DNA of 64,000 bases from Oceanospirillaceae bacterium (GTDB lineage Bacteria > Pseudomonadota > Gammaproteobacteria > Pseudomonadales > Balneatricaceae): positions 124,001 through 188,000 of the forward strand of contig JABSQZ010000007.1 of the NCBI GenBank assembly GCA_013215505.1, written 5' to 3'. Each line of letters opens with the position of its first letter. The stretch's first letter is position 1. The notes beneath the pieces are model-generated. The model did no database searches, was not told the origin of the DNA, and saw nothing but the letters and a program-made list of their open reading frames with translations. The position numbers were made by a program, and so were the translations under genes. Shown one piece after another: positions 8,833 to 29,325 of the stretch.

Positions 8833-8928
8833 TAATGAAGTAGCTATACCGAGCCAACTCTTTCGATGTTAAATGCGCCAGAGTTGGCTACTTAATACCT
8901 TTCAAAAAATATTTTTTTGGATTTTTTT

Positions 8929-9843: not shown

Positions 9844-9845
9844 AC

Positions 9846-10751
9846 ATGAATATTATTAACAAACTTACAGCTAAAAAAGATTTACGTGATATGACCCCCA
9901 GTGAAGTAATGCTGCGCAAAGCTCGCACCCATAAAGGTTTTAAATTTGGCCTTGGCTTGCTGTTGGTGATTGCGTTTTTAGGTTTTATTGCACCTTTGTT
10001 TATAAGCGTATCTCCTTTTGAACAAGACCTTAGCATGCGTTTACTACCCCCTGCATGGGTTGACGGTGGCACTTGGCAGCATTGGTTAGGCACAGACGGT
10101 AACGGACGAGATTATTTAATCCGTATCTTATACGGAGCCAGAATCTCGATGACTATTGGCTTAGGGGCAGCCTGCGTCGGTATGTTGATCGGTGTAACCC
10201 TTGGCATAATAGCTGGCTTTTTTGGCGGCTGGGTTGACCAAGTGGTTAATTATATTTTGACTTGCCAGTTAGCGCTTCCAGGCCTATTACTGGCGATGAC
10301 CATTGTATTTTTAGTGGGTCCATCCATTTTAGTCGTCATCGTTGTGATTGGTGCATTGCATTGGACATTGTTTTTAGTTGTTGCTCGCGCAGCCACTAAA
10401 CGCATTCGCAGTTTGGATTACGTCACCGCTGCCCAAGCCATTGGTGCAAGTAAATTTCAGATCATGACGCGCGATGTATTACCCAACTTAAAGAACCAGA
10501 TTATTGTGATCTTTACCTTAGAAGTGGGTGTTGCCATTTTATCCGAAGCGAGCCTTTCCTTTTTGGGTGTGGGAATACAGCCACCAACACCTTCATGGGG
10601 CCTGCTCATTGCCGAGGGCAAAGACGCATTATTTTATCAACCCTGGCTTATTATTTTACCCGGTATCGCACTATTTTTACTGGTTTTATCTATCAATATG
10701 ATGGGTGATGGTATACGCGACATCACTGATCCAGAAAGCAACATAGAGTGA
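9846..10751 (+). CDS. ABC transporter permease, DppC-like
   Basis: The 301-residue protein has the DppC N-terminal extension (residues 1-60), the conserved HWLGTDGNGRD motif near residue 80 and a BPD_transp_1 domain with the EAA-type loop AAQAIGASKFQIM. It partners with the preceding permease to form the membrane channel of the importer. It overlaps or abuts the ATPase gene, which supports translational coupling. Confidence 0.9.
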   Translation: MNIINKLTAKKDLRDMTPSEVMLRKARTHKGFKFGLGLLLVIAFLGFIAPLFISVSPFEQDLSMRLLPPAWVDGGTWQHWLGTDGNGRDYLIRILYGARISMTIGLGAACVGMLIGVTLGIIAGFFGGWVDQVVNYILTCQLALPGLLLAMTIVFLVGPSILVVIVVIGALHWTLFLVVARAATKRIRSLDYVTAAQAIGASKFQIMTRDVLPNLKNQIIVIFTLEVGVAILSEASLSFLGVGIQPPTPSWGLLIAEGKDALFYQPWLIILPGIALFLLVLSINMMGDGIRDITDPESNIE

Positions 10752-10756
10752 TCCTG

Positions 10757-12370
10757 ATGACTGAACCCCTGCTTAAAATTTGTAATTTGGCGGTGAGTTT
10801 CAAAACCCATTACGGGCAACTTGAAGTTACCCGTGGTTTTAACCTCACCTTAAACAAAGGCGAAACTGTCGGTATTGTCGGCGAGTCCGGTAGTGGAAAA
10901 ACTATGTCCATGCTGGCAATGGCTCGCCTGTTGCCCGGCCAGGCTTATGTATCATCAGGAAGCATTCAATTTGCAGGTGCTGATTTACTGGATTTGAATA
11001 CCTCAGAGTTTCACCAGCAAATATCGGGAAAAAGAATTGCGATGATTTTTCAGGAACCGATGACCGCGCTTAACCCGGTTTATACCATAGGGAGGCAACT
11101 AACTGAAACCATGCTGCTCCACGAGAATGCATCCCAAGCTGCCGCCAATAAGCGAGCAATCGAAATGCTTGAAGCGGTAAAAATGCCCCAAGCCGCATTG
11201 CGAATGGAACAATATCCACACCAAATGTCGGGCGGTCAGCAACAGCGAGTGATGATTGCCATGGCACTCATGAACAAACCTGACTTGCTTATTGCGGACG
11301 AGCCAACCACCGCTCTTGACGTGACAGTGCAAGATGAAATCATACAGTTATTAGTTGATCTGCAAATACGGTTTGGTATGGCGATGATCATTATCTCCCA
11401 TGACTTAGGCGTGGTATCTCGTGTATCCGAGAACATTATTGTTATGTGCAAAGGTGATACCGTCGAAACGGGAAAAACCGCTAAAGTACTTACCAGCCCT
11501 ACCCATTCTTATACGAAAGGTTTGTTAGAGTGTTTGTGGAAGCTCGAAGATGCGCATGGAATTGCAAAACAGTCGAGTACAGCAGCCGTATTAAGTGTTA
11601 ATAACATTGAAAAAACTTATTCAATATCTGGCGGCTTATTTAGAAAGTCACGTACCATTCAGGCCGTGAAACCTACTTCCTTTTCAGTATTTTCTGGAGA
11701 GACCTTAGCAATTGTGGGAGAGTCAGGCTCAGGTAAATCCACCATCGCTAAAATCATTAACGGGCTTATAAGTACGGATCAAGGGCAAGTGTTACTTGGC
11801 GAAACACCTATCGAGAACATGTCGGATAAAGACAGAGCACGTGTCATTCAACCTATTTTCCAAGATCCCTACTCAAGCCTTAATCCCAGTCAAACCATTG
11901 GCTACATTGTCTCTCGTCCATTGCATATTCATAATACAATAGCCGCCAGCAAAATAAAGAAAAAAGCCTTAGAGACGCTCGAAAAAGTGGGCTTGTCCAG
12001 TGACTTTTACCATCGTTTCCCAAGCCAATTATCCGGTGGGCAAAGACAACGTGTGGCAATTGCACGCGCCATTATATTGGAACCAAAAATATTAATTTGT
12101 GACGAGCCTACTTCGGCTTTGGATGTATCTATTCAAGAGCAGATTTTAGATTTACTTTGCCAATTACAAAAAGATTTAAACATGACAATGATAGTTATTA
12201 GCCATGACATGGCGGTTGTTGGCTATCTGGCTGATCGTGTTTTTATTATGCATAACGGTGAAATTATCGAGAGCGGGGAAGCATCCAAGGTACTCAAGCA
12301 CCCGGAAACAGATTATGCAAAAAAACTGATGGCATCCGTCTATAGCGTTCCAAGAGCAAAAATATTATGA
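10757..12370 (+). CDS. Fused double ATP-binding subunit, DppD-DppF type
   Basis: About 537 residues contain two complete ABC ATPase halves. Half 1 has Walker A GESGSGKT near residue 40, signature MSGGQQQRV and Walker B LLIADEPTTALD. Half 2 has GESGSGKS, LSGGQRQRV and ILICDEPTSALD. It replaces the separate DppD and DppF subunits and powers the preceding permeases. I chose ATG 10757; an in-frame GTG at 10748 overlapping the dppC-like stop is also possible. Its own stop overlaps the next start as ATGA at 12367. Confidence 0.9.
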   Translation: MTEPLLKICNLAVSFKTHYGQLEVTRGFNLTLNKGETVGIVGESGSGKTMSMLAMARLLPGQAYVSSGSIQFAGADLLDLNTSEFHQQISGKRIAMIFQEPMTALNPVYTIGRQLTETMLLHENASQAAANKRAIEMLEAVKMPQAALRMEQYPHQMSGGQQQRVMIAMALMNKPDLLIADEPTTALDVTVQDEIIQLLVDLQIRFGMAMIIISHDLGVVSRVSENIIVMCKGDTVETGKTAKVLTSPTHSYTKGLLECLWKLEDAHGIAKQSSTAAVLSVNNIEKTYSISGGLFRKSRTIQAVKPTSFSVFSGETLAIVGESGSGKSTIAKIINGLISTDQGQVLLGETPIENMSDKDRARVIQPIFQDPYSSLNPSQTIGYIVSRPLHIHNTIAASKIKKKALETLEKVGLSSDFYHRFPSQLSGGQRQRVAIARAIILEPKILICDEPTSALDVSIQEQILDLLCQLQKDLNMTMIVISHDMAVVGYLADRVFIMHNGEIIESGEASKVLKHPETDYAKKLMASVYSVPRAKIL

Positions 12371-13734
12371 ATAGGGAAATAAGCGTTACCCAAGCAGATA
12401 TAGCTGCCGAATCTTTTTTTAGCGACCAATCTAAATGGCAAAGTTGGTTAGACGTTGAAGCTGCCTTAGCTTTATCTCAGGGAGAAATTGGCATGATCCC
12501 AGAAAAAGCGGCAACCAAAATTGCGGCTCAGGCCAATCTAGCCTCATTAGATATTAGCGAATTACGTAAACAGATTAGTCAGACAATGGCTCCAGTGTTT
12601 GCATTGTCTGAATGCCTTGCGACAGTCTGTGCAGAAAATGGAGCCTATGTTCACTGGGGTGCAACTACGCAAAATATTGTAGACACAGGAAGATTAATTG
12701 TTTTAAACCGAGTACAGAATAAACTTTTTAAAAACCTAAATAATGTTTTGCACTTATTATCAGTACTCGCCAAAGAACATGCCAATACCGTCATGGTTGG
12801 CAGGACTAACAGGCAGAATGCCCTGCCTATTACATTTGGTTTTAAAGTTGCGGGTTGGATTGATGAGCTGATGCGCGTCGCTGATCAACTTAATGAGATT
12901 GAACCAAGGCTTTTTCAATTGCGTTTCGGTGGGGCTGTTGGTGCGTTCCATAGCTTGGGAACCCAGGGAGCACAAATTTCAGAATTAATGGCAAAAAAAC
13001 TGGGATTACACTCTAGCTTGGTGCCAAACCGGACGTCAATAGACCCATTAATCGAATATGTTATCAAGTTGTCGATGATTGGTGTTGCCTGTTCGCGGAT
13101 ATCCGACGAATTTTTTTTGCTGATGAGCGAAGAAATAGCCGAAGTGAGTGAAGCTTTTGCTGACAATGTTATTGGCAGTTCGACCATGCCGCACAAAGTT
13201 AATCCTAAATATGTAGTGGATTTAAGCGCAATGGCCATGCAATTACGCACTAAAGGTGGTGCCGCACTCACAGTGCCTAGCCCAAGCCATGAAGGCGATG
13301 CCGTTACCAATCGTTTACTCACAAATTTAATTGAAGAAACTTGCCCTTTGGCAATAAACACCTTACAAAAACTGCACGATACAATTGCTATTATAAAGCC
13401 AAATACAACAAAAATGCGGGAGAATTTTGAACGCTCCAGAGAAATGATGGCGACCGAAAGCCTAATGATGACATTAGCGACAACTCTGGGTCGCGGGCAT
13501 GCCCATGATTTAGTTCATTCATTAGTCGCCAAAGCAAAACAACAAGACATTCCACTACAAAAAATATTGAATGAAAATGCAGTGGTCATCGAAACACTAG
13601 GAAGCAAAGCTATTGAAAAAATATTATACCTGGATGACAATATCGGTGAATGTGCAGTTATTGCAAATCACCTTGCTAAGCTAGGCTCTGTCTCTTTAAA
13701 GCGGCATTTGAAATCTGCATCTCACACTCAATAG
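12367..13734 (+). CDS. Aspartase/fumarase-superfamily lyase (adenylosuccinate-lyase/CMLE-like)
   Basis: The 455-residue, mostly helical protein carries the superfamily signature GSSTMPHKVNP near residue 270 and the HWGATTQNIVDT motif near residue 95, typical of adenylosuccinate lyase and 3-carboxymuconate cycloisomerase relatives. Family members cleave or cyclise C-N or C-O bonds next to a fumarate-like product. It overlaps the fused ATPase gene by 4 bp, so it is translationally coupled to an importer. This suggests it splits the imported compound, for example an N-substituted aspartate releasing fumarate; the substrate is not identifiable. Purine-synthesis PurB is unlikely in this context. 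Confidence 0.85.
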   Translation: MNREISVTQADIAAESFFSDQSKWQSWLDVEAALALSQGEIGMIPEKAATKIAAQANLASLDISELRKQISQTMAPVFALSECLATVCAENGAYVHWGATTQNIVDTGRLIVLNRVQNKLFKNLNNVLHLLSVLAKEHANTVMVGRTNRQNALPITFGFKVAGWIDELMRVADQLNEIEPRLFQLRFGGAVGAFHSLGTQGAQISELMAKKLGLHSSLVPNRTSIDPLIEYVIKLSMIGVACSRISDEFFLLMSEEIAEVSEAFADNVIGSSTMPHKVNPKYVVDLSAMAMQLRTKGGAALTVPSPSHEGDAVTNRLLTNLIEETCPLAINTLQKLHDTIAIIKPNTTKMRENFERSREMMATESLMMTLATTLGRGHAHDLVHSLVAKAKQQDIPLQKILNENAVVIETLGSKAIEKILYLDDNIGECAVIANHLAKLGSVSLKRHLKSASHTQ

Positions 13735-14289: not shown

Positions 14290-14733
14290 CTACTTAAGAA
14301 AACTGTCTTCTAAGGCTTTAAATCCTCCTAAAAACACATCATCTGCAACAAAATTTTTCCAATACTCCGCTTGCTCATCGCTCACGGTAAATTGCGCTGT
14401 CCATTTGGCGAACGTTTGATTACGATCCGTAACTTCTTCCAGAGAAATAGTGGAAACATAATCTATAAATGGCAGAGTGTCGTTTAATAGCATGTTATAG
14501 GTCAGGGTATGTTCCTGATCAGAGATGGCCAAGAGTGTTTCACGAATATTTCCCGATCCGTCCGCTAGCGAGAAGTTTCTAATACATCCCACGGCTCCCT
14601 CTGCATGTGTCGCTTCTATCTGACTTTCTGCGACCGCTGGATGCCAGTTCGGTAGACCATTAAAATCTTTTATTTTATTCCACACATCGGATAATGGGAT
14701 ATTGATAATCGTTGATGAACAAACCTTAATCAT
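14290..14733 (-). CDS. SRPBCC (START/Bet v1-like) family protein
   Basis: About 147 residues have the SRPBCC helix-grip pattern: an N-terminal strand, the VWNKIKDFNGLPNWHP segment with the usual tryptophan, and a C-terminal long helix (FKALEDSFLK). Family members bind hydrophobic ligands in a deep cavity and include polyketide cyclases. I chose ATG 14733 because GGAG lies 7 bases upstream; ATG 14745 is also in frame. It is downstream of the TIM-barrel gene with a 208 bp gap, so co-transcription is likely but not certain. It suggests the pathway handles an apolar or aromatic compound. Confidence 0.8.
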   Translation of the reverse strand: MIKVCSSTIINIPLSDVWNKIKDFNGLPNWHPAVAESQIEATHAEGAVGCIRNFSLADGSGNIRETLLAISDQEHTLTYNMLLNDTLPFIDYVSTISLEEVTDRNQTFAKWTAQFTVSDEQAEYWKNFVADDVFLGGFKALEDSFLK

Positions 14734-14953
14734 TTCATTCTCCATTTTATTTTTATTAATACAGGCTTATAGATAAACCCATATATAGCAGGAAACAAGA
14801 GTAGCTTTTAATGGAGTATTCCCCCCCAACGAAAGTCATTAACCAAAACCCCTCCCAGTCCAAAAGTCCCCTATAGGGATGGGATGCACTTTTGAAAACT
14901 CAAGTTATGCAAAATACTTCCCGAAACTACCAAACTGTTATGGGCTTGGTCAT

Positions 14954-15829
14954 CTACAGAGCAACATTCGACGATTTATTTGCATAATTAGTCGCACCAC
15001 CCATAACAAGCCGAGTAAATTCAGCTGTTCGCTCTACTATTGCTTTTTCGGTTGGCAAGCGCTCCATACTAGAAGCGCCATAGAAACCATGGCAATCCGG
15101 ACAATTTGATATTAAGTACTGCGCATCTTCAGGTTCGGCTAGCGGCCCACCGTGACAGACAAATATCATATCTGACTTAATGCTTCTGACCGCTTCTGTA
15201 CACTCGTTAAACATTTCAACACATTGGTCTAAGCTGTAAGTATCATCTGCACCTATAGAGCCACCTGAGGTTAAGCCAAAATGAGTAACGATGATATCGG
15301 TGCCCGCCTCTGCCATTTGCAGCGCTTCACTTTTATTGAATACATAGGGAGTTGTCAGCATATCTTTATGATTCGCACGGGCAATAAGGTCTACTTCCAT
15401 ATCGTAGCGCATACCTGTGCTTTCCATTCCTTTGCGAAACTTTCCGTCTATGATGCCAATAGTCGGAAAATTTTGTATTCCAGAAAAACCTATCGCCTTC
15501 AAGTCATCTAAAAATTTATCGACGATTAAAAAGGGATCCGTGCCATTTACACCCGCTAAAACGGGTATGTTTTTCACCACAGGCAATACTTCTTTGGCCA
15601 TATCATAGACGATTTCATTTGCATTGCCATACGACATGTAGCCAGATAGAGAGCCTCTGCCAGCCATGCGGTAGCGACCAGAGTTGTATATGACAATTAA
15701 ATCACTGCCACCTTCTTCTTCACATTTTGCACTTAACCCGGTGCCAGCACCACTGCCAATTATTATGCGATTGTTAGCAATTTTATGTCTTAAACGCTTT
15801 AATATCTCTGATTTTTTTTGCGCTGCCAT
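14954..15829 (-). CDS. TIM-barrel protein of the phosphoenolpyruvate-hydrolase-like family
   Basis: The 291-residue protein belongs to the TIM-barrel family often annotated as phosphoenolpyruvate hydrolase or TIM-barrel signal transduction protein. Visible landmarks are [30 protein letters not shown], the barrel segment [27 protein letters not shown] and the late [15 protein letters not shown] segment. It lies 17 bp after the Tm-1-like gene. The tomato Tm-1 resistance protein is known to fuse a UPF0261 domain with a domain of this family, so the adjacent pair is the split form. The true substrate is not established for these bacterial pairs. Confidence 0.85.
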
Positions 15830-15846
15830 GGTTTTCTCCTAAAAAT

Positions 15847-17058
15847 TTAGATCGCTTCTGCTGTGATTGCTTCGAACTGTTGCAAAGTAAATGCAGCGAA
15901 TTCTTTTGAATTAATATGATGATTTACACGTATAACCTGTCGGTTATCAGTTGGGATGACGTTTTTTTCTATAGCATTGAATAACCTGTCGTTTGCCGCG
16001 CGGTGATAAAAAGGCCCGCCTTCTATATCTAGCGAAGACACCCCGAGCTCAGGCAATAGAAAGCGCACAGGCCCATTACATTTGTTGAGTTTTTTTGCTA
16101 TCCACAAGCCAATTTTTTCCGCTTCCTCTTCCGTGGTACGCATCAGAGTGACTTGTTCGTTATGCAAGTAAAAGGTCCTGCCTTCGAATTGGTTCGGAAC
16201 CGTATTTCTTGCCCAAAAATTGGCAATATCCAATGCCCCACAAGACCCAATATAAGGTGTACTTGTTTTCGCTATGGCATCCAGGCGAGATTCTCCGGCA
16301 CTGAGTACGCCCCCAACAATAAGGTCACAAATTTCAGTGGTGGTAATATCAATGACTGCGGCAATATCCCCTTGTGAGACAAGTTTTTCCATTGAGCGCC
16401 CTCCTGTTCCGGTCGCGTGAAAAACCAAACAATCCCAGTCGGACTCCAGCGCTTCGACCAGTGCAAGTACACATGGCGTGGTCACGCCAAACATTGTCAA
16501 CGCGATGGCATCAAGGTTTTCATCAATAGCAGGTACTTCCCAGTGCATCATGCCGGCCAAAGCATGCGCCGCATTACCTAACACTTTTGCGGATACACGA
16601 TTAATGCCTGCGACATCAGTGACCGAGTGGAACATATTAATGTCACAGGGCCCTACATAGGCAGAGACATCCCCTGAAGCGAGGGTCGATACTATTATCT
16701 TCGGTATACCTATAGGTAGTTGCTGCATGGCAGATGCGATCATCGCGGTCCCGCCAGAACCTCCCAGACCAATGATTCCGCCCAGGTCATCACAGGACTT
16801 TATAAAGGCTGTCAGCGCTCTGCTCATCTCCTTTATTGCCTTACCTCTGTCATCAACAAAGACCGACGCTGGTCCGTCTGGATGGTGAATAGCCACTTCT
16901 ATTGACTTAATATCAGCGCTCGACTCTTTAGGTATAGTGCTGATATCAACCACAACGGTTTCTATAAACGTGTTTGATCTTGCGAGAAGATCTCTCACAT
17001 AAATGAGGTCGTTTTCTTTCGTATCAAAAGTGCCGACTATGTATGCCTTTTTGTTCAT
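15847..17058 (-). CDS. Tm-1-like ATP-binding (UPF0261) protein
   Basis: The 403-residue protein has the standard length for UPF0261. It starts with AYIVGTFDTKENDLIYVRDLL, then has GIIGLGGSGGTAM near residue 96, GDVSAYVGPCDINM, and the second-domain FHATGTGGRSMEKLV segment, which are family landmarks. The structure of the plant Tm-1 N-terminal domain shows nucleotide binding. The gene lies between the ABC importer genes and the TIM-barrel partner, which suggests both proteins act on the imported ligand, possibly as one complex. The reaction is unknown. Confidence 0.88.
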   Translation of the reverse strand: MNKKAYIVGTFDTKENDLIYVRDLLARSNTFIETVVVDISTIPKESSADIKSIEVAIHHPDGPASVFVDDRGKAIKEMSRALTAFIKSCDDLGGIIGLGGSGGTAMIASAMQQLPIGIPKIIVSTLASGDVSAYVGPCDINMFHSVTDVAGINRVSAKVLGNAAHALAGMMHWEVPAIDENLDAIALTMFGVTTPCVLALVEALESDWDCLVFHATGTGGRSMEKLVSQGDIAAVIDITTTEICDLIVGGVLSAGESRLDAIAKTSTPYIGSCGALDIANFWARNTVPNQFEGRTFYLHNEQVTLMRTTEEEAEKIGLWIAKKLNKCNGPVRFLLPELGVSSLDIEGGPFYHRAANDRLFNAIEKNVIPTDNRQVIRVNHHINSKEFAAFTLQQFEAITAEAI

Positions 17059-17128
17059 GTTTATATTCCTTGGGCTAGCATAAGGGCTAGTGAGTTCGGT
17101 AGCTTTTCATTACCCGTTTGGCGCACGA

Positions 17129-17839
17129 TCACGCAAAGTTGATGCCTAAATATTTTTGCTGCATTTGTGTATTACTTTTCAGCTCTTCAGCTGTGACCTG
17201 GTCAACAATCCGGCCGTTTAGCATTATTAATATGTCGGAAGCGACCTCTAACGCCACTGAAATATTTTGCTCAACCAGTAATAATCCTATCTCATGTTCC
17301 GCAAGGGAATGTAACAACTCAACCACATCATCGACGATAGTAGGAGCAAGCCCTTCCGTGGGTTCATCCATTATCATTATTTTCGGATCGAGCATAAGCG
17401 CGCGACTGATCGCCAGCATTTGCTGTTCACCGCCGGACAGTCGATCGCCCATATTTTTTCTGCGTTCTGCTAAGCGTGGAAAAATGGAAAATATTTTTTC
17501 AATTGACCATCGTGAATCCTTTTTTTCCACCAGTTTCAGATGTTCAATAACAGTTAGCGAGCGAAATATTCTTCTCCCTTGCGGGACATAGCCAATACCT
17601 GTCTTAGCACGGCTCTCAGGGGAGTATGAGCTGATGTCCGTTTGATCGAGAAACACAGAACCAGATGCTGCTTTTGTTAACCCCATTAGAGCAGAGCACA
17701 AAGTAGTCTTTCCCATACCGTTACGACCAAGTATGGCCTTTGGTCTATTGGAAATGTTGATATCAATATCCTGTAAGGTATGGCTTGACCCATGATATAC
17801 ATTCAACTTATCTATCTTTAATAACTGATCTGGCATCAT
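17129..17839 (-). CDS. livF: Branched-chain-type ABC importer ATPase, LivF-like
   Basis: The 236-residue ATPase has Walker A GRNGMGKT near residue 38, signature LSGGEQQML, Walker B IMIMDEPTEGLAP and the LivF-typical ending QQKYLG. Its start overlaps the livG stop by 4 bp. It energises uptake together with LivG. The symbol denotes the family only; the ligand is unlikely to be leucine given the catabolic neighbours. Confidence 0.9.
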   Translation of the reverse strand: MMPDQLLKIDKLNVYHGSSHTLQDIDINISNRPKAILGRNGMGKTTLCSALMGLTKAASGSVFLDQTDISSYSPESRAKTGIGYVPQGRRIFRSLTVIEHLKLVEKKDSRWSIEKIFSIFPRLAERRKNMGDRLSGGEQQMLAISRALMLDPKIMIMDEPTEGLAPTIVDDVVELLHSLAEHEIGLLLVEQNISVALEVASDILIMLNGRIVDQVTAEELKSNTQMQQKYLGINFA

Positions 17840-18609
17840 TGTCTTTTACCCACATAAATTTCACGGACAATATCACTGTGCACAACTTCTTCTGGTTCAC
17901 CTTCCAACAAGTGTTTACCGTTGTGCATGACACTGACGATATTGGATGTTTCAAGGGCAATATCCATATCGTGCTCTATTAAGATAACGCTCAATTTTTT
18001 AGGTAGTGACAACAGCAGTTCAGTCAATACAGGCCGTTCCGCTGGCGACAAACCCGCGGCGGGCTCATCAAACAGAACAATTTTAGGATCACCAGAGAGT
18101 GCTATCCCTATTTCTAATTGACGCTTCTGACCGTGTGATAATGCCCCGACCAATACATCCATTTTTGAAGAAAGTCCTGCAACTTTTGCCAGTGCTTCTG
18201 CCTTTTCGTGGTATTTACTATTCTTTTTTAGCGGATAAAACAGAGGCCATTTATTATGAATGCCAACAACAGCTAATAGTAATGTATCACGCACACTTAA
18301 ACTGTCGAACAACAACGCATGCTGATAAGTGCGCCGTAAGCCTGCTTGAATCCGCTTATGTGTAGGTAGGGTAGAACTTTCAACACCTTCAATCTCAATG
18401 CTGCCTTCAGAGAGGGGGAAGTCTCCTGTAATCAGGTTAAACAGAGTCGTTTTTCCCGCTCCGTTTGACCCCAGAATTGCCCTTCTTTCCCCTGTCTTTA
18501 TCGTCATATTTAGATTGTCAACGGCCACAAAGCTGCCAAAGCGTCGGGTGACGCCTTTTAAATTTAGCGCCACCCTTTGATTGCTTGCAGACCCATCAGT
18601 TAGGGGCAA
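17836..18609 (-). CDS. livG: Branched-chain-type ABC importer ATPase, LivG-like
   Basis: The 257-residue ATPase has Walker A GSNGAGKT near residue 47, signature LSHGQKRQLEI, Walker B IVLFDEPAAGLSP and the LivG/BCA_ABC_TP-type C-terminus ending REIYVG. It overlaps the binding-protein gene upstream by about 10 bp and livF downstream by 4 bp, consistent with tight coupling. Confidence 0.9.
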   Translation of the reverse strand: MPLTDGSASNQRVALNLKGVTRRFGSFVAVDNLNMTIKTGERRAILGSNGAGKTTLFNLITGDFPLSEGSIEIEGVESSTLPTHKRIQAGLRRTYQHALLFDSLSVRDTLLLAVVGIHNKWPLFYPLKKNSKYHEKAEALAKVAGLSSKMDVLVGALSHGQKRQLEIGIALSGDPKIVLFDEPAAGLSPAERPVLTELLLSLPKKLSVILIEHDMDIALETSNIVSVMHNGKHLLEGEPEEVVHSDIVREIYVGKRQ

Positions 18610-19850
18610 GATGGGTTCTCCCGACTAACCGCGCCAATGGCTCTAAACGCAGTAGGATCCTGGCCCATTGTCTGGTTAACGTTACTTACCAGCTTGAGAA
18701 CACGATTGCCAAGTGACCCGTCCTCACGTTCGTAAACTTCGGTGACAAAGTTATCAATAATACCGTTGCGGTTTTCATCGAGGCGCATAGTACCGCCGGT
18801 TGGAGTAACAAACTCCAGATTATTAAGGGAAGCGCGCAGGGCCTTATGTTGGTTTGATAAATCGCCATCTACTTGCTCTAAGCCAAGCAATACCGCTTTA
18901 CCGGCCATGTAATAGTGGTGCGCAAATATCGTCGGTGATGTCATCCCCTCTGGGAAGTTACTGAGATAAGATGCGGTAAACTCTTTCCACTCTTTACCCT
19001 CGTAATCACTGACCGTTGGAGTTCCAGCAGGTGCACCTATTAATAATTTTTTAAAGGGTCCTTTACTGTCTAAAATTGACTGATCTATGGTTATGGTGCC
19101 ACCAATAATAGGCTTATCACCACCGGCCTGATCATATTGAGTCAAGAAGTTGACTGCGTCAGCACCCCCTAGAGCAACAAAAATAGCATCCACATCATCG
19201 GGAATTGAATAGACAACTGATGAATAATCTTTAGTGCCAATCGGGGTCCAAAACTTCTTCGGAACACGGCCACCAGCAGCACAGTATTCAGACATAAAAC
19301 CTAAAACTTGTGTATATGGAAAAGAGTAATCCTCAGCGACAACCGCCACTTTTTTGTAACCTAATTCTTCAAACGCATAAGTTCCAACACCGGCCATCCA
19401 CTGAGCACCATCACCGCCAAATCGGAAAAAATTATCAGAGCCTTCTCGAAAGGTCGCATCCTGTGCTGCCGATGAGCCGTTGACAAAAGTGACCCCTTTG
19501 TTACCCTTTGATAAATCGCGCAGTGCAATGCCTTCTGACCCCGATAAAGGACCAATAATAATATCGACGTTATCATGATCTATTAACTTTCTCGCCGCAT
19601 TTACGGCTGAATCGGGACTGGCATCTGATGACATGACGATAATTTCTACGTCCATTCCGGCCACTTTGCCACCCGCTTCTTTAAACGCCAGTTCTGCACC
19701 GCGTACACCGTCTTGGCCTAATGAGGCGAAAGCACCTTCTAATATCGATATCACACCAATTTTAATTTTATCGGCTGCTAATATGGGTTGTGATAGACAA
19801 GCGATAGCTACCGCACCGACCAGGATAATTTTTTTAAATTTCACAATCAT
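18600..19850 (-). CDS. Branched-chain-type ABC importer substrate-binding protein, LivJ/K-like
   Basis: The 416-residue protein has a Sec signal peptide of about 25 residues ending in ILAADK, then a type I periplasmic binding fold with the opening KIGVISILEGAFASLGQDGVRG region and the AARKLIDHDNVDIIIGPLSGSEG loop. It defines what the operon imports. Unusually it is placed between the permease and ATPase genes. Its start overlaps the livM stop by 17 bp. The ligand cannot be read from sequence; the SRPBCC and Tm-1-like neighbours suggest an organic acid or aromatic compound rather than an amino acid. Confidence 0.9.
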   Translation of the reverse strand: MIVKFKKIILVGAVAIACLSQPILAADKIKIGVISILEGAFASLGQDGVRGAELAFKEAGGKVAGMDVEIIVMSSDASPDSAVNAARKLIDHDNVDIIIGPLSGSEGIALRDLSKGNKGVTFVNGSSAAQDATFREGSDNFFRFGGDGAQWMAGVGTYAFEELGYKKVAVVAEDYSFPYTQVLGFMSEYCAAGGRVPKKFWTPIGTKDYSSVVYSIPDDVDAIFVALGGADAVNFLTQYDQAGGDKPIIGGTITIDQSILDSKGPFKKLLIGAPAGTPTVSDYEGKEWKEFTASYLSNFPEGMTSPTIFAHHYYMAGKAVLLGLEQVDGDLSNQHKALRASLNNLEFVTPTGGTMRLDENRNGIIDNFVTEVYEREDGSLGNRVLKLVSNVNQTMGQDPTAFRAIGAVSRENPSCP

Positions 19851-20829
19851 TTTTTATTTTCCTTTTTATTGCATTATTATCATATTTTCTTATCCGTTTT
19901 TGAGCGGACAAGAAGCTTCCAAGTATCCCTTGCGGTGCCGCCATAACAATAAACAAAAGAACAAGTCCAATGATCATGTTAAAGCGGTCTCTGCTGAAGA
20001 GATCTATAACAAATGTATCAATCAAGACATAAGTGATAGCGCCAATGAATGCTCCCAGAGGATGTCGCATTCCTCCGATAACGGCGATGATTAACAAATC
20101 GATGGTGGGACCCAATCCGACAGAAAAGGATGAGATCCTCTCTTGCTGCCAGACGTTAAGAACCCCTGACATACCGGCGATAAACCCTGAAAATGCATAA
20201 GCGGCAATGATCACCGGCGTGGTGGGAATACCAATTGCGCGCACGCGCCGGGCAGCATCTTTAACCCCTTGCACAGCAAGTCCTAAGGGACTTGATGTGA
20301 ATTTGACTACTAAATACCCCGCCGCCGTGGCGCTTAGCAGTGTGGCGTAATAAAACACCAGCGAATCCTCTAGTGATACACCGAAGGCGACAGGGGCTGT
20401 TATCCCGGAGAAGCCGGTCCATCCATTGAAAATTGAATAATTCTGTCGAGTGAAGTAAAAAAATGCCATGCTGATCGCCAGGGTAATCATAATGGAATAA
20501 ATACCCACAGATTTCTTAGCGATCGCACCGACAAAAGCCCCTGCCAATGTTGAAAACAGCAATGCTAATGCCACTGCAAATAACCAAGGTAATTCAATAC
20601 CTAAACCTGTGGTATTGGGACTAAAATAGGCGATGGTATAACCGGCAACACCTGCAAGTGTAATCTGTGCAAACGAGACCACACCTAGGTAAGTGGTTAA
20701 GAACGTAAGGCTCAGTGCTGCAATGCCCAAAATAATAGATCGGGTCAATATTTGATTCAGCCAAAAATCCGAAATAAAAGCGGGCAAGATTATCAAAATG
20801 ACCACTATTAACAGTAGAGTGCGGCTCAT
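19834..20829 (-). CDS. livM: Branched-chain-type ABC importer permease, LivM-like
   Basis: The 331-residue protein has about nine hydrophobic segments, the YLGVVSFAQITLAGVAGY motif of LivM permeases and the GGMRHPLGAFIGA loop. Its ATG overlaps the livH stop as ATGA. The Liv-type permeases form a heterodimer that receives substrate from the binding protein. Confidence 0.9.
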   Translation of the reverse strand: MSRTLLLIVVILIILPAFISDFWLNQILTRSIILGIAALSLTFLTTYLGVVSFAQITLAGVAGYTIAYFSPNTTGLGIELPWLFAVALALLFSTLAGAFVGAIAKKSVGIYSIMITLAISMAFFYFTRQNYSIFNGWTGFSGITAPVAFGVSLEDSLVFYYATLLSATAAGYLVVKFTSSPLGLAVQGVKDAARRVRAIGIPTTPVIIAAYAFSGFIAGMSGVLNVWQQERISSFSVGLGPTIDLLIIAVIGGMRHPLGAFIGAITYVLIDTFVIDLFSRDRFNMIIGLVLLFIVMAAPQGILGSFLSAQKRIRKYDNNAIKRKIKNDCEI

Positions 20830-21692
20830 TGCTCTGCCCTCCCTAAAATACCTTGTGGTCGAAATGCTAAGACGGTCACCATAATTAAAAAGGTAAAAAC
20901 TACCCCGTAAGTAGGGGCGTAAGCTAAGCCATACTGCTCGGCCAAGCCTATTAACAACGCACCTAGCGCAGCTCCTCCCACGCTGCCCATACCACCTACG
21001 ATGACGACAACAAGAGAAGACAGCAGAAACTGAATATCCGTGCCTGGTGAAATAGAGAGCGCGCTGCCAAAGATAACTCCTGCCATACCCGCGAGCGCTG
21101 CACCCATAGCAAAAACAATAATAAATATTTTCTTAATCTCAAAACCTAGTGCTTGCAGCATTTCGCGATCATCTACACCGGCACGGATAATAATACCCAG
21201 TTTAGTCTTAGCAATGAGTAACCAGAGTAGTACACCGACAACTATTGCCATCCCTATTAGCGTCAGGCGAACCACGGAGTAACCAACATTTAACAACGGC
21301 AGTCTTATCCCCCCCTGTAACATCTCGGGAAGACTGATCTGATAGGTTAACCCTCCCCATGCCCAGAGTAAGAAATCAGCTAAAATTATTGAAATAGCGA
21401 TCGTTATCAATGTCTGACGTAGCTCGTCACCTTGATACCGTCCCAGTATAAATGCTTGTAGAAAAGCACCCACTAGTGCGCAAGAGAGACCCCCTGCTAT
21501 AATTCCCAGCACCCAAAACCCGGTCATTTCGACAACTTCATAACCAATATAGGCACCTAAGAGGAGCAGCACACCATGCGCCATGTTAACCGTTCTCATC
21601 AACCCAAAAATCAATGTAAAGCCACATGCAGTTATAAAATATAATGACGCCAGGGTTAGGCCATTAAGAAAAACAATAAAAAATAATTTCAT
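20826..21692 (-). CDS. livH: Branched-chain-type ABC importer permease, LivH-like
   Basis: The 288-residue permease opens with a hydrophobic helix and the LIFGLMRTVNMAHG motif that is diagnostic for LivH, and later has GGMGSVGGAALGALLIG. It is the first gene of the minus-strand operon. A strong ribosome binding site, GAGGTG, lies 5 bases before its ATG. Confidence 0.9.
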   Translation of the reverse strand: MKLFFIVFLNGLTLASLYFITACGFTLIFGLMRTVNMAHGVLLLLGAYIGYEVVEMTGFWVLGIIAGGLSCALVGAFLQAFILGRYQGDELRQTLITIAISIILADFLLWAWGGLTYQISLPEMLQGGIRLPLLNVGYSVVRLTLIGMAIVVGVLLWLLIAKTKLGIIIRAGVDDREMLQALGFEIKKIFIIVFAMGAALAGMAGVIFGSALSISPGTDIQFLLSSLVVVIVGGMGSVGGAALGALLIGLAEQYGLAYAPTYGVVFTFLIMVTVLAFRPQGILGRAEQ

Positions 21693-21795
21693 TTACACCT
21701 CTTTTTTCTCTATTGTTAAGGAATAAGGAGGTGATAAAAACCAAAACTACATTTAAAATTTAATGCTTAATATTCAATTAGATAACAAATACTCT

Positions 21796-21834
21796 GGAAA
21801 AATTTTCCGATTATTATAGGAAATAATCGGAAAA
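21796..21834. promoter_or_regulatory. Probable operator: perfect 13+13 bp inverted repeat between divergent units
   Basis: TTTTCCGATTATT at 21803-21815 and AATAATCGGAAAA at 21822-21834 form a perfect inverted repeat around a 6-base spacer. An overlapping smaller palindrome, GGAAAAATTTTCC, occupies 21796-21808. It is roughly midway between livH (start 21692) and the plus-strand regulator pair (start 21875), so it is the likely binding site of the AAA+ regulator. No convincing TGGC...TTGC (-24/-12) promoter was found next to it. Confidence 0.65.
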
Positions 21835-21874
21835 ATTCATTCCTGTTTCCGGTTTTTTCTGTATTGTATTCAAT

Positions 21875-22540
21875 ATGAAAATATTAACGATGGTTTCTCA
21901 TTGCAAAAATAACAGCTCCGATCAGATTTTATGTCCCATTTTAAAAGGACTAAATTCGGCACAATCCGATTGCGCTATTATTATCCCCGCAGGAAATGCC
22001 AATAGGCTTCTACTTACGGCGCTTGCAACTAAAAAGAATAGAGCGAATTGTCAAGTCGCCATTTTGTGCAACGATCCCTTTATAGATAGAGATAGTTTTT
22101 TTTTAGAACTGTATTCACTAGGGGTTAGAACGATCTCAAACTGGCCCTCCTCTATATTTCTAGAACAGAGTTTCAAAAAGGCCATGTCCAATATTGGTAT
22201 ACACCCTGAATCTGAATTTGAGTATCTTACCCAGGCCACCTCGGCAGGGTTAAGGCCGCAAGCATTTATACGATCACTCGATCAGGGCAGACAGGCAATT
22301 GAAAAAGGCATCAAAGATTTAATTATCCACCCAGGGTTAAACCAAAAACTCACACTGAAAGCACAAAATGCTGTTTTAGATTCTCTACAATTGATGATTG
22401 AAGCGTTTTTAAATATTGACCCTAACTTAAGCATCTACATTTATCAGCATTCACTAAAAGACCTAAATGCCTATCGCGAACGCTACTCAGGAAAAGTTTC
22501 ACCTATCAGTGGCTATGTAATTTATGGAAGTGTGGAATGA
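21875..22540 (+). CDS. Degenerate TIM-barrel-like protein coupled to the AAA+ regulator
   Basis: The 221-residue protein has no standard family name that I recognise. The stretch from about residue 90 to the end aligns by eye with the TIM-barrel proteins next door: NWPSSIFLEQSFKKAM against [16 protein letters not shown], then the FEYLTQATSAGLRPQAF segment against the corresponding helix and strand. The glycine-rich strand ends that mark the active site of the enzyme are not kept. Its stop overlaps the regulator start by 4 bp (ATGA), so the two are translationally coupled. It may be a non-catalytic partner of the sensor domain; this is inference. Confidence 0.65.
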   Translation: MKILTMVSHCKNNSSDQILCPILKGLNSAQSDCAIIIPAGNANRLLLTALATKKNRANCQVAILCNDPFIDRDSFFLELYSLGVRTISNWPSSIFLEQSFKKAMSNIGIHPESEFEYLTQATSAGLRPQAFIRSLDQGRQAIEKGIKDLIIHPGLNQKLTLKAQNAVLDSLQLMIEAFLNIDPNLSIYIYQHSLKDLNAYRERYSGKVSPISGYVIYGSVE

Positions 22541-24306
22541 AAAAGCTAATCGCTAGCAAAAAGTCATCGTTTAGTTTTGCCGCAGCTGTAGGTACCGGGA
22601 TGACCGCTAAAGCGGCAGAAAAAGGTGGGGCAGAGTTTTTATTACTGGTCAATGCGGGGCGTTTACGGATGCGTGGAGCCCCATCACTTAGCTGCTATCT
22701 GCCACTAGAGAACGTAAATACCTGGATTGCAAACATCGGCAAAACAGAAGTGTTAAACCGCTGTAAGATCCCCGTTTTAATGGGATGCAGTGTCGCTAAC
22801 CCCCAGGATAATATAAATGACATCATCACCTTAGCCAAAGAAAGCGGTTTTACAGGTGTCACCAATTTCCCTTCTGCTTGCTTAATAGACGGTGACATTA
22901 GAGAAGTGCTCGAATTGCAGAATATGGGATTTGAAAAAGAATGTGAACTGATAAAAGCCGCGTCGAAGCAGGGGCTGCAAACCTTAGCTTATGTGACAAA
23001 CAATGATGAGGCACTACAAATGGCGGCCGCTGGGGCTAGCAGGCTCTGCATTAATATTGGTTTCACAAACAGCTCCTCAGTAGAGCCCAGTAATTTGACT
23101 GTCGATAATACAGTAAAGATTATCGATCGCGCATTGCGCAATATTCCTGATCACATTGCTACTTATGTTGAGGGAGGGCCTATTACAACGCCAGAATCCG
23201 CTTTAGCCATTTGTAGTAAAAGTCGTGTTCAGGGGTATATCGCAGGCTCGACTATCGACCGGATCCCGCTGGAAGAGGCGATCATAAATATCGCTAAATC
23301 CTATAGGGTTATTAGTAACATAGAGAATATTGACAGTATCATCCAAGAGTCTTCATATATTTTTGGATCGTCGAAAAAAATGTTGCAGATAAAAAAAATG
23401 GTAGAACAGTTTGCTTCCCTTAACACACCTATTTTAATTACCGGTCCTAGTGGGTCTGGCAAAGATGCACTTGTTGAAGAAATCCACCAGCGCAGTGATA
23501 AACACCGTAATAAAATTATTCATGTTGATTGCTTGAACCTAGCGCTTGAAGGCGGACTAGAATTCTTGTTTGGCAGCGTTGCAGGTTATCAGGGTAAAGG
23601 TTCTGCCTCTAAAATCGGCGTTTTGGAATATGTTAATAATACCACGATATATTTTGACGAAATATCTGCACTTGATCACGAAACTCAATCAAAACTGATT
23701 AATTTTTTTGATACAGGTACCGTTCGGCGCTTAGGTGACGATAAACACCATCAAGTGAATTGCCGAATAATTTCATCCACCAGAGAACCCATTGATCAGT
23801 TATTAAAGAAAGGGGTACTTATAGAAGAGTTATACTATCGCCTAAGCGCATTATATATCTCTATCCCCGCATTAAATAAAAGAACCGAGGATATCCCCTT
23901 TCTGGCAAAAAAATTCATCGCAGATATAAAAAAAAGCCACTCGCAAAAAATTTCAAATTCTGGACTGAGCGCCCTTATGGAATATGACTGGCCAGGTAAT
24001 ATACGAGAATTTAAAAACGCTTTAACCAGAGCATGCTTATTAAATCATTCAAAAACATTAAAATCTTCAGATTTCAACTTTCTAAAAGAGCTGCTAATCA
24101 CTAACAGTATTGATGAAGCATCGGTAGTTCCTCTAAACGCCCCTGAGAAAAAATCACTTTCTGCACAGCCACTGACTGAAAAAGATTGGATCACTGAGAC
24201 CTTACAAAGGAATCGATTTAAAAGAGGACCTACCGCCACTGCACTGGGTATAACAACCAGAACGCTATATAGCAAAATAAAAAAGTATAATATTTATTCC
24301 CCCTAA
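22537..24306 (+). CDS. TIM-barrel sensor / AAA+ / Fis-HTH transcriptional regulator with degenerate GAFTGA loop
   Basis: The 589-residue protein has three parts. Residues 1-270 are a phosphoenolpyruvate-hydrolase-like TIM barrel, clearly paralogous to the operon enzyme (shared GTGMTAKAAEKGGAEFLLL-type opening, GVTNFPSACLIDGDIRE, YVEGGPITTPESA). Residues about 280-510 are an enhancer-binding AAA+ domain with Walker A GPSGSGKD, Walker B TIYFDEIS and LYYRLSALYISIPAL. The C-terminus is a Fis-type HTH (ALGITTRTLYSKIKKY). The loop that contacts sigma-54, normally GAFTGA, reads GYQGKG. The protein therefore probably senses the same ligand as the enzyme and controls the divergent operon, perhaps without sigma-54, as TyrR does. 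Confidence 0.88.
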   Translation: MKKLIASKKSSFSFAAAVGTGMTAKAAEKGGAEFLLLVNAGRLRMRGAPSLSCYLPLENVNTWIANIGKTEVLNRCKIPVLMGCSVANPQDNINDIITLAKESGFTGVTNFPSACLIDGDIREVLELQNMGFEKECELIKAASKQGLQTLAYVTNNDEALQMAAAGASRLCINIGFTNSSSVEPSNLTVDNTVKIIDRALRNIPDHIATYVEGGPITTPESALAICSKSRVQGYIAGSTIDRIPLEEAIINIAKSYRVISNIENIDSIIQESSYIFGSSKKMLQIKKMVEQFASLNTPILITGPSGSGKDALVEEIHQRSDKHRNKIIHVDCLNLALEGGLEFLFGSVAGYQGKGSASKIGVLEYVNNTTIYFDEISALDHETQSKLINFFDTGTVRRLGDDKHHQVNCRIISSTREPIDQLLKKGVLIEELYYRLSALYISIPALNKRTEDIPFLAKKFIADIKKSHSQKISNSGLSALMEYDWPGNIREFKNALTRACLLNHSKTLKSSDFNFLKELLITNSIDEASVVPLNAPEKKSLSAQPLTEKDWITETLQRNRFKRGPTATALGITTRTLYSKIKKYNIYSP

Positions 24307-26567: not shown

Positions 26568-28007
26568 ATGAGTTCTGAAGGAGGTATCAATAATGGTTGC
26601 TCAAGGTCGGATCATGAGGTTTTCGATGTCGCAGTAGTTGGTGGTGGGGTTGTAGGCTGTGCTGTTGCACGTAGATTTGTACTTGAGGGTGCGAGGGTGG
26701 CTTTGCTTGAGAAGGGTGAGGATATTTTAAGCGGTGCCAGTAAAGCTAACAGCGCAATTTTGCATACTGGTTTTGATGCGCCTGTGGGCTCGCTAGAGCT
26801 TGAGTGTGTTCAGGCGGGTTATAAAGAGTATATGGAGATATTTAAGGATTTTGATCTTCCTATCCTTAAAACGAGTGCTTTTGTAGTGGCGTGGACACAA
26901 GAGCAACTGGCTCGTCTGCCTAGTATTGAAAGCCAAGCGCATCAAAACAATGTAGATAATGTTCATATAGTCACGTCTGATACTTTGCTTAAGCGGGAAC
27001 CCAATCTTTCTCGCTCAGCCCTAGGTGCAGTTTCAATACCTGGAGAATTTGTCATTGATCCATGGTCATCACCCTTGTCTTATTTAACGCAGGCCGTGTT
27101 GAATGGAGCCGAAGTGAGGTTTGGGTATGGAGTATCATCCGGTCAGTTTGATGGAGAAACCTGGGTGCTCAAGAGCGCTACAAAAAAAGATATATCTGCA
27201 CGATTTGTCATCAATTGTGCCGGACTCTATGGTGATCAGTTGGATGAGGCGCTTCTGGGTCGCTCCGAGTTCTCGATCAAGCCACGTAAAGGTCAATTTG
27301 TTGTTTATGACAAAGCCGCTTCTGCCTTGTTGAACGCTATCATCCTTCCTGTGCCGACTGAGCGTACTAAGGGGATAGTGTTAACTCGCACAATATTTGG
27401 GAATTTGCTGCTCGGCCCGACGGCTGAGGAGCAGGATGATAGAGCGCTAGCGAGTGTTTCTAAAAAGGAGGTTGAGTTGCTCAAAAATCAAGCAGAAGCG
27501 ATGGTGCCTTGCTTAAAAGGGATGCCGGTAACTGCGACCTATGCAGGCCTTCGGCCAGCGTCAGAAAGTAAGGAATACCGAGTTTTTGAATACGAGCAGA
27601 AAAACTGGATAACTGCTGGCGGAATCCGCTCAACGGGATTGACTGCATCTTTAGGGTTGGCTGCTCACATTTACAAACAGTATTCGAAAATGGCAAATTT
27701 CCTGGTACCACTGACATCAGTAAAGACGCCGAAGATGCCAAACCTAGCAGAGCATAAACAGCGAGACTGGATGCAAAAAGGGTACGAAGAAATAGTTTGT
27801 CATTGCGAAATGGTGACAAAAAGAGAAATTGATAATGCATTTGCGTCTGTTATACCCGCGCGTGATTTATCAGGATTGAAACGCCGTACTAGAGCGACGA
27901 TGGGGCGTTGTCAGTCTTTTTACTGTTCAGCACGCCTCGCTGAATTGACGAAAGATCGCTTTATCGATGATCTGTCAGTCGATGTAAGTGGTGAAGAGCA
28001 TGAATAA
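26568..28007 (+). CDS. FAD-dependent dehydrogenase, GlpA-like with C-terminal BFD [2Fe-2S] domain
   Basis: The 479-residue protein has a DAO-type FAD fold (VAVVGGGVVGCAVARRF near residue 18) and a C-terminal BFD-like iron-sulfur domain with cysteines in the patterns CHC and GRCQSFYC in the last 60 residues, as in anaerobic glycerol-3-phosphate dehydrogenase subunit A. It probably oxidises glycerol-3-phosphate or a similar polyol phosphate. AAGGTGG lies 4 bases before the ATG. It overlaps the next gene by 8 bp. Confidence 0.88.
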   Translation: MSSEGGINNGCSRSDHEVFDVAVVGGGVVGCAVARRFVLEGARVALLEKGEDILSGASKANSAILHTGFDAPVGSLELECVQAGYKEYMEIFKDFDLPILKTSAFVVAWTQEQLARLPSIESQAHQNNVDNVHIVTSDTLLKREPNLSRSALGAVSIPGEFVIDPWSSPLSYLTQAVLNGAEVRFGYGVSSGQFDGETWVLKSATKKDISARFVINCAGLYGDQLDEALLGRSEFSIKPRKGQFVVYDKAASALLNAIILPVPTERTKGIVLTRTIFGNLLLGPTAEEQDDRALASVSKKEVELLKNQAEAMVPCLKGMPVTATYAGLRPASESKEYRVFEYEQKNWITAGGIRSTGLTASLGLAAHIYKQYSKMANFLVPLTSVKTPKMPNLAEHKQRDWMQKGYEEIVCHCEMVTKREIDNAFASVIPARDLSGLKRRTRATMGRCQSFYCSARLAELTKDRFIDDLSVDVSGEEHE

Positions 28008-29238
28008 AAAAATTATGCAGGTGGATGTCGCTATCATTGGGGCTGGTCCTGCGGGTTTGGCTGCCGCGACACGGTTGCGTCAGCGAGGTGTTGATCAGGT
28101 TGTTGTATTGGATAGAGAGGCAGAAGGCGGCGGAATACCGCGCCACTGTGGGCATCCTCCTTTTGGAATGCGTGAGTTCTATAGCGTTTTAACTGGCCCT
28201 CAATACGCGAAGAGACTAGTCGCACAAGCTATTACAGCGGGAGTAAGAGTATTAACTCGTCATACGATTACGCGTTTGCTCAAGGGAGGTGAGCTAGAAG
28301 TAGCCACTCCAGATGGCCTGATTACCATTATGGCGAAGCGGGTCTTGATTGCAACGGGAGTTAGGGAAACACCGCGATCGGCCAGGCTTGTTACTGGTGC
28401 CAGACCTCTCGGAATTACCACTACCGGGGCTCTCCAATCAATGTTTTATTTGAAGGGATTAGTTCCTTTTAAAAGACCTGTTGTAATAGGCACTGAACTG
28501 GTCGCCTTTTCTTCGATTATGACAGCTTCCAATGCAGGGCTAGAACCGGTCGCAATGATAGAATCAGGATCACGTATTACTGCTCGCCATCCATGTGAAT
28601 TGCTTCCTCTATTTAAGGGAGTGCCATTACTTCTTAATACTGAATTAGAGGAAATTCTGGGTGTAACTAAAGTAGAAGGGGTAAGTGTTAAAAATACCAA
28701 GACAGGAGAACGTCGATTGATTGAATGTGATGGTGTCATTTTTACAGGGCAGTTTACTCCAGAATCAACGCTAGCTAGGATGTCTCACCTTAAAGTCGAT
28801 CCTGCTAGCGGTGGTCTACACATTAATCAGTTTGGCCGCTGCTCTGATCCTGCGTATTTCGCAGCAGGAAATATCCTGCGACCTGTAGAAACAGCCGGCT
28901 GGAGTTACCGCGAAGGTCGTTCTGTCGGAGGTTGGATCGCCGATGATTTAGAGCGAGCATCAAGTCTCATCCATGACCCAGAAGTTACATTGATATGTGA
29001 AGATCCTATTAAATTGGTTGTACCACAAAGAATAATATCGGGGCAATCAGGCGGCTTTACACATCTCCAACTTCGGGTTTGCCGCCCGGTAACAGGAGAA
29101 CTGATTATTGAAAACGATGATAAGACCTTCTGGCAAAAAAAAATATCGACTTTACCGGAGCGTCGTATCCTAATTCCTATTACTGACCTAGATTACTTTG
29201 AAGGCACAAAATCACTGAGAGTTTATTTGAAAGAATAA
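28000..29238 (+). CDS. NAD(P)/FAD-dependent oxidoreductase partner
   Basis: About 412 residues form a pyridine-nucleotide-disulfide-type flavoprotein (VAIIGAGPAGLAAATRL, a second NAD-type nucleotide segment with RVLIATGVRETPRSAR, and GQFTPES) plus an 80-residue tail. I chose ATG 28000, which overlaps the previous stop as ATGAATAA; an in-frame GTG at 27988 is an alternative. Similar pairs with a GlpA/BFD protein and a glycerol kinase occur in glycerol operons of other bacteria. It probably passes electrons from the dehydrogenase to NAD or another carrier. Confidence 0.85.
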   Translation: MNKKIMQVDVAIIGAGPAGLAAATRLRQRGVDQVVVLDREAEGGGIPRHCGHPPFGMREFYSVLTGPQYAKRLVAQAITAGVRVLTRHTITRLLKGGELEVATPDGLITIMAKRVLIATGVRETPRSARLVTGARPLGITTTGALQSMFYLKGLVPFKRPVVIGTELVAFSSIMTASNAGLEPVAMIESGSRITARHPCELLPLFKGVPLLLNTELEEILGVTKVEGVSVKNTKTGERRLIECDGVIFTGQFTPESTLARMSHLKVDPASGGLHINQFGRCSDPAYFAAGNILRPVETAGWSYREGRSVGGWIADDLERASSLIHDPEVTLICEDPIKLVVPQRIISGQSGGFTHLQLRVCRPVTGELIIENDDKTFWQKKISTLPERRILIPITDLDYFEGTKSLRVYLKE

Positions 29239-29325
29239 CTATTTAGCGCATTAAATAAAAACCAAAAGTTTATAAAACTCAGTCTATTACTAATAAAGGT
29301 GGTCTGTCTAAAGGGTAGAAAATAT

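Follow-up and report, generated by a model that had tools for sequence, protein, structure and literature searches.

The divergent operons and their products

Within a 64,000-nucleotide stretch from an Oceanospirillaceae bacterium (assembly GCA_013215505.1, contig JABSQZ010000007.1, positions 124,001 to 188,000; hereafter the window), two operons diverge across 182 bp. The minus-strand operon carries the genes of an importer and of an enzyme pair related to the two halves of tomato Tm-1, while the plus-strand operon is a control unit of two genes: a regulator that begins with a triosephosphate isomerase (TIM) barrel of the enzyme's own family (PF09370), and a small, stand-alone, degenerate barrel of the same family, here called the companion, whose end overlaps the start of the regulator by 4 bp (Table 1). 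The reading that we favour, at a probability of about 0.5, is that of a catabolic module, induced by its substrate and spread by horizontal transfer, whose sensor derives from the enzyme and probably consists of two proteins; the companion would be the partner of the sensor barrel, and the window lineage would no longer depend on sigma-54.

Every gene named in a preliminary description of this DNA is present by open reading frame and Pfam checks, and the reported spacing of 17 bp between the UPF0261 and TIM-barrel genes was reproduced; the companion gene had been overlooked there although it lies inside the region described. A search of the window's own genome returned three PF09370 barrels, all at this locus, and one UPF0261 gene.

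Table 1. Features of the divergent locus (window coordinates)
Feature	Position	Strand	Evidence and remarks
SRPBCC protein (PF10604, Polyketide_cyc2)	14290-14745	-	Pfam E 4.8e-21; accessory to enzyme pair
TIM-barrel enzyme (PF09370), Tm-1 C-terminal half	14954-15829	-	Pfam E 2.7e-124
UPF0261 protein (PF06792 + PF23189), Tm-1 N-terminal half	15847-17058	-	E 1.7e-57 (N-terminal), 5.8e-86 (C-terminal)
LivF-type ATPase	17129-17839	-	Pfam
LivG-type ATPase	17836-18609	-	Pfam
Periplasmic binding protein (PF13458, Peripla_BP_6)	18600-19850	-	Pfam E 2e-54
LivM-type permease (PF02653)	19834-20829	-	Pfam
LivH-type permease (PF02653)	20826-21692	-	Pfam
16-nt inverted repeat, candidate operator between the operons	21800-21837	.	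Arms 94% complementary
Companion, stand-alone degenerate PF09370 barrel, 221 aa	21875-22540	+	Pfam E 3e-14, 53.3 bits (cut-off 33.8)
Regulator, PF09370 sensor barrel + AAA+ + Fis helix-turn-helix (HTH)	22537-24306	+	PF09370 E 1e-65; Sigma54_activat E 4.4e-37; Fis HTH E 5.1e-08
Regulator domains			PF09370 barrel aa 1-265; sigma-54-activator-type AAA+ aa ~270-515; Fis HTH aa ~547-584

A companion barrel that accompanies the sensor

Gene neighbourhoods tie the companion to the regulator. A scan of genome contigs with the sensor barrel gave 64 loci, which with plasmid records, further genome stretches and the window formed a common table of 65 loci with the barrel fused to an AAA+ regulator and 20 loci with an enzyme barrel only; short loci (L001-L016) and three loci on contigs shared with L075 and L037 (L017, L018 and L023) were left out before companions were counted, and L024, with no barrel reading frame, stands outside all counts. 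The companion occurs alongside the sensor in 61 of the 65 sensor loci and in none of the 20 enzyme-only loci, a linkage that the Fisher value overstates, as many of the loci are closely related (those of Bradyrhizobium above all). Among the 29 representative sensors left after reduction at 85% identity, it is absent only in L071. A phylum sample, with one region taken from each of 20 out of 27 genomes with PF09370, had the companion in 3/3 regions with a sensor, two of which resemble species already counted, and in 0/17 regions without one, among them L137 (G551), counted as sensor-less with decayed barrel pieces. Across the 61 loci that have it, the companion lies directly upstream of the regulator on the same strand in 19, tail-to-tail with it at 120 bp or less in 36, and remote from it in six. 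One could instead assign the companion to the UPF0261/TIM enzyme as a non-catalytic subunit, as it is homologous to that enzyme and shares a cluster with it; its absence from both sets of sensor-less regions, on which we rejected this explanation, and its location within 120 bp of the regulator in 55/61 loci make such a role highly improbable.

The predicted structure of the companion (mean pLDDT 91.4) is that of its family: the six chains of Protein Data Bank (PDB) entry 2p10 take ranks 1-6 in Foldseek, and VIA-align gives a Z of 21.5 against 2p10 over 211 aligned residues (root-mean-square deviation 2.7), with the next entry at 13.6. Against the phosphoenolpyruvate (PEP) mutase superfamily, from which 2p10 takes its name, this model scores no higher than against PdxJ (PEP mutase Z about 12, 2hrw Z 11.3, PdxJ Z 13). 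Residues of 29 sensors and 44 representative companions were compared at the 56 alignment columns in which at least 92% of 37 enzymes agree. The companions keep only 27% of these columns. Gone are R54, G51, the strand-7 GGP and the motif at 253-261, whereas N71, D98, P99, N120, P122 and E145 (enzyme numbering; N43, D67, P68, N89, P91 and E114 in the companion) are kept in 42-44 of the 44; in the model these residues would lie near the C-terminal ends of strands 2-4, to one side of the face where the pocket usually is. With its active-site motif lost and its linkage to the sensor conserved, the companion looks like a pseudoenzyme that would partner a paralogous sensor.

A quick tree of 112 barrels sets the companions apart by a single branch (support 100), their exact place being unsure given the long branches. 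Rapid divergence (the mean distance is 1.79 among companions and 0.90 among sensors), together with loss in a few loci, is what a decaying leftover copy without function would show, but the open frame is intact in most loci, translational coupling is seen, and the six residues above persist in nearly every companion, so that we give this explanation hardly any weight. Sensor and companion are also found together on rhizobial plasmids, in L092, L095 and L102 (NGR234 pNGR234a, Bradyrhizobium with nodU nearby, and Mesorhizobium pMLa).

The sensor barrel resembles an enzyme turned receptor

The sensors keep 67% of the 56 enzyme-conserved columns, and G31, A34, G51, R54, G57, N71, G93, N120, P122, E145, GG 227-228, P229, S253 and E261 are retained in all 29. 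Recurrent substitutions are Y48 to L (27 of 29), H183 to N (25), H226 to E (20), A252 to G (29), S254 to T (26) and E256 to D (28), and these altered residues probably have catalytic roles in the enzyme. This pattern suggests an enzyme converted to a receptor, with its pocket largely kept; the earlier view of the sensor barrel as a paralog of the enzyme with a related rather than a wholly different pocket is borne out to this extent. The model of the whole regulator has a pLDDT of 80.6 and a pTM of 0.50.

The preliminary description went further and proposed that the regulator had captured a copy of the local enzyme. This does not agree with a careful tree of 67 barrels, in which a single branch (support 100/98) separates all the sensors from the rest, so the regulators did not each capture the neighbouring enzyme, and a recent local capture was rejected. 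Sensor and companion instead appear, on these phylogenies, to have been made once and co-inherited beside enzymes of quite different clades.

A different mode of control is known from DhaR, a relative without the GAFTGA motif that is governed by the binding of an enzyme, according to the accessible text of PMC3162934. By analogy, the sensor barrel might bind no small ligand at all, and the companion (or the enzyme) might act as a protein co-effector that reports the substrate. The companion, having lost R54, GGP and the 253-261 motif, is indeed unlikely to bind a ligand alone, but the many pocket residues kept in 29/29 sensors suggest that the sensor binds a ligand of its own, and we consider control of the DhaR kind unlikely.

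Joint loss of GAFTGA and of the -24/-12 promoter

The regulator has the AAA+ (Sigma54_activat) and Fis HTH domains of a sigma-54 enhancer-binding protein, but the GAFTGA loop and, at the target operon, the -24/-12 promoter are missing. It reads AGYQGKG at the GAFTGA position, and GAFTGA is kept in only six of the 65 sensors. A -24/-12 box facing the operon, with 10-12 of 12 matches, is present in 6/6 GAFTGA-plus loci and in 0/46 GAFTGA-minus loci, when every locus is searched around the start of the LivH or UPF0261 frame nearest the control genes, from 500 bases ahead of it to 250 past it; 13 GAFTGA-minus sensor loci with neither frame on the stretch were skipped. The weakest box, in L040, has 10 of 12 matches and was equalled in 12 of 200 shuffles, and scans of whole loci find chance boxes of at least 11 matches elsewhere, GAFTGA-minus loci included. 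At the window operon no -24/-12 promoter was found, the best candidate, with 9 of 12 matches, falling within the LivH frame and the intergenic region offering at most 7 of 12. Given AGYQGKG and the missing box, we rejected the possibility that the regulator still functions as a sigma-54 activator in the window lineage. Since rpoN is present in the genome, the sigma factor itself has not been lost; it is control by sigma-54 that this lineage has probably abandoned.

The intergenic region holds a candidate operator. Two TTTCCGATT half sites, 21 bp apart at 21804 (+) and 21825 (-), make up its inverted repeat, and a third half site, TTTCCGGTT, lies at 21846. The motif ATCGGAAA occurs in 8 of 16 homologous intergenic regions, against a maximum of five in 200 shuffles.

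The enzyme pair and its importer

Both domains of the UPF0261 protein and the PF09370 enzyme barrel score above curated cut-offs. The UPF0261 protein matches tomato Tm-1 (3wry; phmmer E 4.3e-91), and the enzyme barrel is a close relative of Mll9387 (2p10; phmmer E 1.6e-112). On Mesorhizobium plasmid pMLa, 2p10 in turn serves as the enzyme of a sister module (630.8 bits, residues 1-285). UPF0261 and the TIM enzyme are encoded on the same strand at most 60 bp apart in 80 of 89 enzyme loci, a few of which are close relatives of one another; in seven UPF0261 lies farther away and in two there is none on the stretch examined. Such adjacency is no chance event, and the conserved neighbourhood expected in the preliminary description was recovered from other genomes.

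The accessory gene is less constant. Some relatives have two SRPBCC genes, some a fusion of SRPBCC with a zinc alcohol dehydrogenase, and some a cupin instead. The dehydrogenase fusion and a flotillin-family protein beside the enzyme pair are seen at L020:5286-6776, L020:7223-9277 and L141:10865-13732. Further barrels occur near some pairs: a 391-aa protein of Ligilactobacillus that contains a PF09370-like barrel lies beside a second UPF0261/TIM pair (L082:6630-7805), and in L137 the decayed extra barrel pieces (4805-5937) adjoin an intact pair.

The importer has the full Liv/Urt-type (HAAT) ATP-binding cassette (ABC) set of one Peripla_BP_6, two BPD_transp_2 and two ABC_tran proteins. It reaches none of the curated cut-offs of the NCBIfam equivalogs for branched-chain amino acid or urea importers (LivF 164.2 against 441, UrtE 222.3 against 285.8, UrtA 59.7 against 492.75), and an importer of either known kind was rejected on these scores. 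LivF is fused to UPF0261 in 11 of 88 UPF0261 loci (L020, L073, L075, L134, L138, L141, L145-L148 and L151), as Pfam verified in 4/4 scanned, and these fusions link importer and enzyme pair directly. Around the constant UPF0261 and TIM core, the importer may be of Liv type, of sugar type or missing from the stretch: rhizobial and related modules have sugar-type importers with cupin and Gfo/Idh genes, the pMLa module has no importer on the conserved stretch, haloarchaeal modules combine a Liv importer with a cupin, L041 and L044 have a divergent Liv set, and enterobacterial and Vibrio plasmid modules have a TetR regulator only.

These observations bear on the earlier proposal of a single imported compound to which importer, enzyme pair and sensor would all respond by recognition, which as a full alternative would have the local enzyme captured and the companion irrelevant. 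The operon is conserved, the LivF-UPF0261 fusions join importer and enzyme, and over 18 loci with all parts the distances among sensors correlate strongly with those of the enzyme (0.92) and UPF0261 (0.93). The correlations with LivH (0.77), the companion (0.76) and above all the binding protein (0.65) are lower, so the sensor tracks the enzyme more than the importer. As importer types are exchanged between modules, a compound common to all parts is only partly supported. As the sensors, moreover, form one clade apart from all enzymes and the companion tracks the sensor rather than the enzyme, we judge the full alternative improbable.

As to the substrate, the best PDB relatives of the binding protein are 4zpj (140.6 bits), 4ey3 (78.2) and 4evq (77.5), of which the latter two, both distant, are taken to be aromatic-acid binders. 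Loci of other clades have an FAA hydrolase, an alpha/beta hydrolase, an amidohydrolase or a carbon monoxide (CO)-dehydrogenase-type molybdenum hydroxylase next to the module. Together these pointers hint faintly at a (hetero)aromatic or related acid, from which the carbohydrate-type genes of the rhizobial modules point away; flanking genes vary between clades. Subunits of the CO-dehydrogenase-type hydroxylase adjoin the Liv/UPF0261/TIM module at L141:14653-18695.

Distribution and neighbouring genes

The family is patchy, being found in 3/7 genomes of the same genus and in 0/50 other relatives, and the closest named record is that of the Osedax symbiont Rs2 (L025; 95% over the sensor barrel). 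The window proteins group among alphaproteobacterial ones, which makes it likely that the module spread by horizontal transfer. Two other operons flank it in the window. A LysR regulator, a dipeptide-type importer and a Lyase_1/ADSL_C lyase (6225-13734) form a second, unrelated uptake-and-breakdown operon, and a flavin adenine dinucleotide (FAD) oxidoreductase with a BFD domain, a pyridine nucleotide oxidoreductase, an FGGY kinase and a DeoR regulator (26568-31776) form a glycerol-3-phosphate-like operon.

Comparison with known systems

The same two domains as in the window module are found in plant Tm-1 and in bacterial pairs of UPF0261 and TBST (PF09370); here, by comparison, the halves are separate genes, and importer and SRPBCC genes and a control unit with two barrels accompany them. 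PF09370 is also known as a domain N-terminal to sigma-54-type activators. The y4pA-type regulators annotated on NGR234 pNGR234a and Mesorhizobium pMLa have the architecture of the window regulator; in the literature found, neither a companion barrel, nor a lost GAFTGA, nor a matching -24/-12 loss is described for them. As far as the available excerpts go, y4pA is merely called a sigma-54 copy, and in Yersinia and maize a TIM-barrel signal transduction protein is merely listed. The sister module to which Mll9387 (2p10) contributes the enzyme barrel also has a companion and a sensor of its own (L102). Named a 'putative phosphonopyruvate hydrolase', 2p10 is a structural-genomics entry whose name is a label, with no activity in the literature found.

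The pathway had been described as uncharacterised, and this holds for its function: no functional study of a Tm-1-like ATP-binding protein or phosphoenolpyruvate hydrolase was found in open-licence PMC literature, nor a native function of Tm-1-like genes in the literature found. It does not hold for the pairing itself. From its accessible text, a 2016 study reports split UPF0261/TBST genes that co-occur in 97.4% of 504 bacterial genomes with correlated distances, proposes their interaction, and places Tm-1-like genes in nearly all sequenced land plants (PMC5028733); that text contains no match for sigma, AAA or transcription, and its single match for operon is in the reference list.

TyrR, DhaR and HupR are sigma-54-activator relatives that lack GAFTGA and are sigma-70 dependent, DhaR being controlled through binding of an enzyme, in the portion available of PMC3162934. 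The window regulator is like them in its AAA+ domain without GAFTGA, but the partner proposed for it is a paralog, in degenerate form, of its own sensor. Relative to the literature found, the companion and its near-complete linkage to the sensor appear new, as do the joint disappearance of GAFTGA and the -24/-12 box, the fusion of LivF with UPF0261 and the common origin of all sensors. To our knowledge, none of TyrR, DhaR and HupR has a PF09370 barrel.

A model for the module and its significance

In the favoured reading, the importer would take up a compound that the two-protein enzyme (UPF0261 and TIM barrel) would break down with its SRPBCC helper; the divergent control unit consists of two more copies of the TIM barrel, one fused to the AAA+/Fis regulator and one stand-alone and degenerate. 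The sensor barrel would bind the enzyme's substrate or product, its binding residues kept and its catalysis lost, and the companion would be its dedicated partner, either half of a heteromeric sensor or an adaptor, that sets the state of the regulator. Where the GAFTGA loop is intact, in a minority lineage, the regulator would drive a sigma-54 promoter before the operon; in the window lineage it would probably act at a sigma-70-type promoter via the inverted TTTCCGATT sites. A more specific version, which we offer tentatively and as short of an even bet, is that catalysis-dead sensor barrel and companion make up a heteromeric ligand switch derived from the oligomer of the enzyme itself, in a cassette that has spread across importer types and mostly escaped sigma-54.

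Several points weigh against this reading. L070, L071 and L072 have no companion on the stretch examined, and in L027 it is a remnant of 51 residues directly upstream of the regulator. The partial correlation of sensor and companion distances given UPF0261 is only 0.21, and the distance correlations as a whole rest on non-independent pairs. The sensor pocket is inferred from alignment alone, without coordinates. The six GAFTGA-plus loci on which the promoter contrast turns are few and related, comprising five of Ectothiorhodospiraceae type and Chelativorans, and the count of operator motifs was set against mononucleotide shuffles in regions that are homologous. Finally, as the five-gene core swaps importers, the compound sensed may differ between clades.

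The locus offers three independent routes to the substrate, namely the binding protein, the sensor barrel and gene induction. The correlation between GAFTGA and promoter would capture members of a sigma-54 activator family leaving sigma-54 along with their promoters. If the companion works with the sensor, the regulator would be assembled from two retired copies of the very enzyme under its control.

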